DNA from: Nitriliruptoria bacterium
GTDB taxonomy: Bacteria; Actinomycetota; Nitriliruptoria; Euzebyales; Egibacteraceae
Length of the DNA stretch: 39,026 nucleotides
Reading direction: 5' to 3'
NCBI GenBank assembly: GCA_003550425.1
Contig: PUKE01000069.1
Span: 1 to 39,026, forward strand
Below are positions 15,154 to 15,191 of this stretch, in pieces. Position 1 is the first letter of the stretch. Each line of letters starts with the position of its first letter. The notes beneath the pieces were generated by a model. It saw nothing but the letters and a program-made list of their open reading frames with translations. It was not told where the DNA came from and ran no database searches. Position numbers and translations under genes: made by a program.

Positions 15154-15191
15154 GTAACGGAGGCGAAACGCGAGGCTGACGACACCGCAAC
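15154..15191 (+). promoter_or_regulatory. GlnR-type operator upstream of glnB
   Basis: Four half-sites are spaced exactly by six bases: GTAAC-n6-GAAAC-n6-CTGAC-n6-GCAAC. The published actinobacterial GlnR consensus is gTnAC-n6-GaAAC repeated, so the first pair is a perfect match and the second pair a degraded one. It lies 79 bases before the glnB ATG. This predicts activation of glnB-glnD by an OmpR-type GlnR under nitrogen limitation; the regulator itself is not in this window. Confidence 0.7.

Follow-up and report, generated by a model that had tools for sequence, protein, structure and literature searches.

The 38-bp element at positions 15154–15191 (forward strand) of the window, by which we mean the whole 39,026-nucleotide stretch of DNA that was analysed, very probably serves as a binding site for the nitrogen regulator GlnR, placed before the genes for the PII signal protein and its modifying enzyme. 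Such control is familiar from Streptomyces and Mycobacterium, and the actinobacterial branch in which it is predicted here has been little studied. With high confidence, we propose that the element would serve as the operator-promoter of the glnB-glnD unit, to be bound and activated by GlnR under nitrogen shortage, and that amtB and glnA would be driven likewise. The mechanism is already known, and the lineage is one without a described case in the papers searched: a literature search, outside which most subscription papers lay, returned no paper on GlnR in Nitriliruptor, Nitriliruptoria, Euzebya or Acidimicrobi. Among its hits were a sirtuin review in which GlnR and a searched group name both occur, and a tRNA-synthetase paper probably matched through 'GlnRS'.

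The predicted operator and the glnB-glnD locus

The element consists of four half-sites arranged head to tail in the order a1-b1-a2-b2: GTAAC (a1, 15154–15158), GAAAC (b1, 15165–15169), CTGAC (a2, 15176–15180) and GCAAC (b2, 15187–15191), all on the forward strand. The original prediction had described exact six-base spacing in the published GlnR arrangement and a perfect first pair, and the letters bear out both: all three gaps are exactly 6 and a1 and b1 are perfect, with one mismatch in each of a2 and b2. Scored over the 18 specified letters of GTnAC-n6-GAAAC-n6-GTnAC-n6-GAAAC, the box reaches 16/18 against the published consensus, given as gTnAc-n6-GaAAc-n6-GtnAC-n6-GAAAc (PMC10704036). 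The same paper reports the adenine at half-site position 4 as irreplaceable (PMC10704036), and position 4 is A in all four half-sites of the box. On both strands of the 39 kb window this is the sole score of at least 14, and the box is wholly intergenic: the preceding gene stops at 15116, and the glnB ATG is at 15270.

Downstream of the box on the forward strand, a Shine-Dalgarno sequence recognised by eye, AGGAGG (15257–15262), is followed by glnB (15270–15608), which encodes a PII signal protein of 112 aa (Pfam P-II PF00543, E 8e-31; 149 bits with the NCBIfam P-II models, which is under their cut-offs) with, by count, the T-loop Tyr-51. The next gene is glnD (15689–18145, forward strand), encoding the 818-aa PII nucleotidyltransferase/removing enzyme with the Pfam domains GlnD_UR_UTase, HD and ACT; its product scores 520.7 bits with TIGR01693, for which the cut-off is 519.4. 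Directly 5′ of the glnB promoter lies a gene with NYN RNase-like and OST-HTH/LOTUS domains (13875–15116), and just 5′ of the box a 14-base unit is present as a perfect tandem copy (GCGGCAGACCCGAG x2, 15118–15145). Elsewhere in the window are an arginine deiminase gene (PF02274, E 4.5e-110; 33088–34320) and, on the other strand, a flotillin/band-7 gene (30965–32356).

GlnR and its predicted regulon within the genome

As the original prediction requires, the genome encodes an OmpR-type GlnR, and the box recurs before glnA and amtB. The glnR gene lies at G000:C150:10483-11172, and its product matches Pfam GlnR_1st (PF21695) at 102 bits, against a cut-off of 27, in addition to Trans_reg_C. The top PDB matches are 8hih_O (231 bits) and 8hig_A (222 bits), both of which we take to be GlnR chains, their deposited names being generic; RegX3 matches at 102 bits, and 4o1h, which carries the title GlnR, is in the same match list. 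The recognition helix RTVDVH(I/V)RRLRAKLG is common to the product and to the 8hih_O and 8hig_A chains. Among the 25 of 39 NCBIfam matches listed, the product meets general response-regulator models only, all far under cut-off, and with the MtrA model it scores 106, where the cut-off is 300. In one 3.2 kb locus, glnR has mshD on one side (TIGR03448 above cut-off) and, judged by eye, a Fur-like frame on the other. No GlnR box was found at the glnR start, the top score on that contig being 13/18 and located elsewhere.

In this 2.9 Mb genome, which is ~95% complete, the OmpR-type DNA-binding domain (Trans_reg_C) was found in five proteins. One is RegX3-like (266 bits to RegX3 versus 205 to MtrA), and a further response regulator, L023, is present as well, the loci L023–L025 having been judged by eye. 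Head-to-tail 11-bp repeats are also the sites of other OmpR-family regulators of the RegX3/PhoP or MtrA kind, and one of these could be the main reader of the box, GlnR being secondary; a review of GlnR has cross-regulation with PhoP and MtrA among its topics, and a PhoP-protected sequence is reported within the amtB promoter (PMC10704036). However, the GAAAC-n6 pattern is the one published for GlnR (PMC10704036), the three best sites of the genome all precede core nitrogen genes, and the regulator scores do not speak for a leading role of MtrA or RegX3. We regard this alternative as very improbable and take GlnR to be the principal reader of the box.

A search of the genome with GTNACn6GAAACn6STNAC gave two exact matches, one before the glnB of the window and one before glnA on contig C69. 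Two further matches carried a single mismatch, of which one lies before amtB on contig C339 (TTCAC-GAAAC-GTGAC-GACAC); the identities of glnA and amtB were confirmed at their boxed loci. The other one-mismatch match (L004) and the weaker matches look like chance. With up to two mismatches there were 21 matches in 20 loci, compared with 16 for a reversed-pattern control, and a composite pattern with up to three mismatches gave 4 matches in the genome and 4 for its control. Nine of the 17 loci besides glnA, glnB and amtB were inspected for frames and G+C (L004, L007, L008, L012, L014–L016, L018 and L019), and among these nine no nitrogen gene was recognised by eye downstream. Because the two-mismatch total is near that of the reversed control, the confident regulon has three members, glnB-glnD, amtB and glnA, and no further convincing box came out of the genome-wide pattern searches. 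Several of the nine loci lie on contigs of lower G+C content, and such contigs of the bin (L012 31%, L018 47%, also L024, judged by its frames), against 75% in the window, are likely foreign DNA.

Conservation of the predicted operators among relatives

Sixty-one related genomes were searched, in which glnB was matched in 50, amtB in 53 and glnA in 55; for each gene the best 30 loci were read. GlnR was found in 47/61 genomes at 1e-30, and GlnR_1st was above cut-off in 48/61. A box of at least 14/18 precedes glnB, as the original prediction requires of the relatives, in 28 of the best 30 loci of 50, with diverged flanking sequence; the two weak boxes belong to G009 (12/18) and G007 (13/18). The mismatch in two of the four half-sites of the window's box would be compatible with a chance match in an intergenic stretch, but we give this explanation next to no credence: in dinucleotide-preserving shuffles, 0/200 shuffled windows reached a score of 16, with a top score of 15 seen once, and together with the conservation before glnB these shuffles rule it out. 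The box read as a GlnR operator also recurs at the other two genes. Before amtB, it scores at least 14/18 in 22/30 loci and at least 13 in 27/30 (best 30 of 53), and before glnA at least 14/18 in 27/30 loci (best 30 of 55). Shuffled upstream regions attained 14 in 1/1500 cases for each of glnB, amtB and glnA.

The exceptions are few. In two amtB loci the top score within 500 bp was 12, and the glnA genes of G026 and G028 had no box inside the locus, though both genomes encode GlnR. At one glnA locus (L229), where a partial copy of the gene is also present, a 14/18 box with n10-TAGCGT stands ~320 bp before the full copy. A natural negative is provided by G022 (96% complete, 2.1 Mb), which had no match to GlnR, glnB or amtB and whose glnA has no box, the best score being 10/18.

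The absence of an adjoining amtB, which the original prediction had pointed out for the glnB-glnD operon, holds throughout the relatives read: no amtB was found in the 1.5 kb 5′ of glnB in 30/30 loci, and glnD follows glnB in 29/30 (best 30 of 50). Since a like operator-promoter is predicted before amtB elsewhere in the genome, the contiguous amtB-glnK-glnD of Streptomyces and Mycobacterium is here divided between two units, both of which a single regulator would control. This suggests that the amtB-glnK-glnD set can split with both parts retaining their predicted GlnR operators. Outside the 30 glnB loci read, amtB of one relative lies directly 5′ of glnB, ~78 bases apart, at G057:C27:561-2275.

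G029, a relative from the same order as the window, belongs to Euzebya pacifica: plasmid NZ_CP031166.1 is matched at 100% by the initial 6000 bases of the second G029 contig. Euzebya is placed by NCBI in Euzebyales, Nitriliruptoria, and the family of the window is another within that order. The predicted GlnR regulon reaches the order that includes Euzebya with its promoter geometry intact, and the extension of GlnR-type control to this lineage, as first put forward, is supported at the level of prediction by the GlnR gene, the boxes and their conservation. With regulon and geometry both extending to Euzebya's order, regulation of PII, of ammonium transport and of glutamine synthetase by GlnR is likely old in the phylum. 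A scan of the phylum, all classes pooled, gave a GlnR-like protein (E<=1e-45) in 35/100 genomes.

Predicted promoter geometry, base –12 and residue 52 of GlnR

A predicted –10 element, GACGAT (15202–15207, forward strand), of the form nAnnnT with a non-consensus G at –12, lies 10 bases after b2, from which a transcription start near 15214 is predicted. Relative to that start, the box extends from about –60 to –23 and a2 from –38 to –34, where the –35 of the predicted promoter falls. The register recurs in the relatives: nAnnnT was found at n10 after the box in 24/30 glnB loci (best 30 of 50), an n10 element in 28/29 boxed amtB loci (TAnnnT in 26/29) and TAnnnT at n10 in 25/27 boxed glnA loci. 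Six of the 30 glnB loci have no element at n10; TAnnnT occurs at n11 in four glnB loci (L036, L038, L040 and L045), seemingly of a Euzebya-type family, and at n12 in one locus. This usual 10-base distance between the fourth half-site and the –10 element is consistent with GlnR standing in for recognition of a –35. At the amtB promoter of S. coelicolor, a2 is likewise described at the –35 position, with GlnR proposed to recruit RNA polymerase via sigma (PMC5826061), and in the reported GlnR-RNA polymerase complex four GlnR occupy four sites (PMC10704036).

We envisage that nitrogen shortage would bring GlnR onto the four half-sites, head to tail, with the downstream protomers over the –35 position, and that RNA polymerase would be held there at the weak –10 GACGAT, which follows the last half-site at a distance of 10 bases. 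Transcription from about 15214 would then yield PII and its modifying enzyme, and amtB and glnA, elsewhere in the genome, would come under the same GlnR via like operator-promoters.

To compare this register outside the relatives, named genomes were scanned with GlnB, giving 80 loci with no close relatives among them; 24, actinobacterial by title, served as outgroup controls and 20 non-actinobacterial loci as negative controls, in which the best score was at most 13. One actinobacterial locus (L060) was left out of the register count because its upstream DNA is lacking. In the 23 named loci that remain (Streptomyces, Mycobacterium, Nonomuraea and others), amtB precedes glnK in 23/23, and a box of at least 12/18 stands near the amtB start, a position estimated from partial matches, with n10-nAnnnT, in the same 23/23. 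At glnA, all 13 of the named actinobacterial loci searched (L247–L259) have a box of at least 12/18 and then n10-TAnnnT.

These counts bear on whether GlnR activates from the box. The glnB –10 matches the consensus poorly, which speaks against activation from this site, and M. smegmatis GlnR is described as both activator and repressor (PMC3662644); GlnR might therefore bind the box and repress or merely modulate glnB-glnD, with the main promoter elsewhere. We consider this quite improbable. In this lineage glnA and amtB have the identical register from box through n10 to –10, as do amtB-glnK and glnA of the named actinobacteria, where both are activated by GlnR according to the literature (PMC3662644, PMC3087709), and between 15000 and 15700 there was neither another promoter-like match nor a sigma-70-like promoter with a –35 of its own. 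Activation by GlnR from the box is accordingly the reading that we retain as a prediction.

Compared with the amtB-glnK-glnD operon of Streptomyces and Mycobacterium, the system shares the OmpR-type GlnR, the a-b-a-b order with n6 gaps, a2 at –35, the –10 placed 10 bases after b2 with C/G at –12, and the PII and GlnD genes downstream. It differs in that glnB comes directly after the box and amtB is elsewhere with its own box, and the second a-site, CTGAC here, is degenerate in Streptomyces (e.g., GGGCT). Published GlnR control of glnA in many Actinomycetes is alike in box and n10 spacing, which this genome has too. With the MerR-type GlnR/TnrA of Bacillus, by the account of the GlnR review, only the name and the nitrogen role are alike, the protein family and the operator being unrelated.

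Two lineage-level features stand out beyond this known scheme, namely the conserved non-consensus –12 (C/G) of the PII-operon promoters and the Thr/Ser that replaces Arg-52 of GlnR. The glnA promoters have T at –12 (TAnnnT), in 25/25 related loci that carry the element as well as in 13/13 named ones, whereas the PII-operon promoters at n10 lack it: –12 is C/G in 23/23 named loci and, among the 24 related glnB promoters, C/G in 23, A in one and T in none. Stand-alone amtB promoters of the relatives have T in 26/28. The glnB loci with TAnnnT at n11 or n12 run against a simple –12 rule. We infer that the PII promoter may be kept weak so as to depend on GlnR. In S. venezuelae, glnA is reported to be bound and expressed at nitrogen sufficiency and amtB to be strongly induced (PMC3087709), data that fit a weak PII promoter.

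A broader idea, which we offer tentatively and think more doubtful than probable, is that actinobacterial GlnR promoters share a single grammar (a-b-a-b, n10, xAnnnT), with a –12 base that sets expression and has been retained for this from Streptomyces to this order, T allowing some basal expression of glnA and C/G making the PII-glnD operon tight and GlnR-dependent; the class GlnR, with Thr/Ser for Arg-52, may in addition be switched or dimerised differently. Studied GlnRs are described as having Asp-50 and Arg-52; the Arg, in the lost phosphorylation pocket, is reported from A. mediterranei and said to be highly conserved (PMC10704036). In the class, the Asp is kept in 30/30 GlnR loci aligned (L140–L169), and the residue two positions after it is Thr/Ser, without Arg, in all 30 and also in L234, L235 and the GlnR encoded at G000:C150, compared with Arg at residue 52 in 5/5 GlnRs from named actinobacteria. 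Arg-52 being described in that source as conserved, without being given as a family criterion, we read Thr/Ser as a probable lineage variant. With Arg-52 absent, switching of the GlnR here could differ from that of the studied GlnRs.
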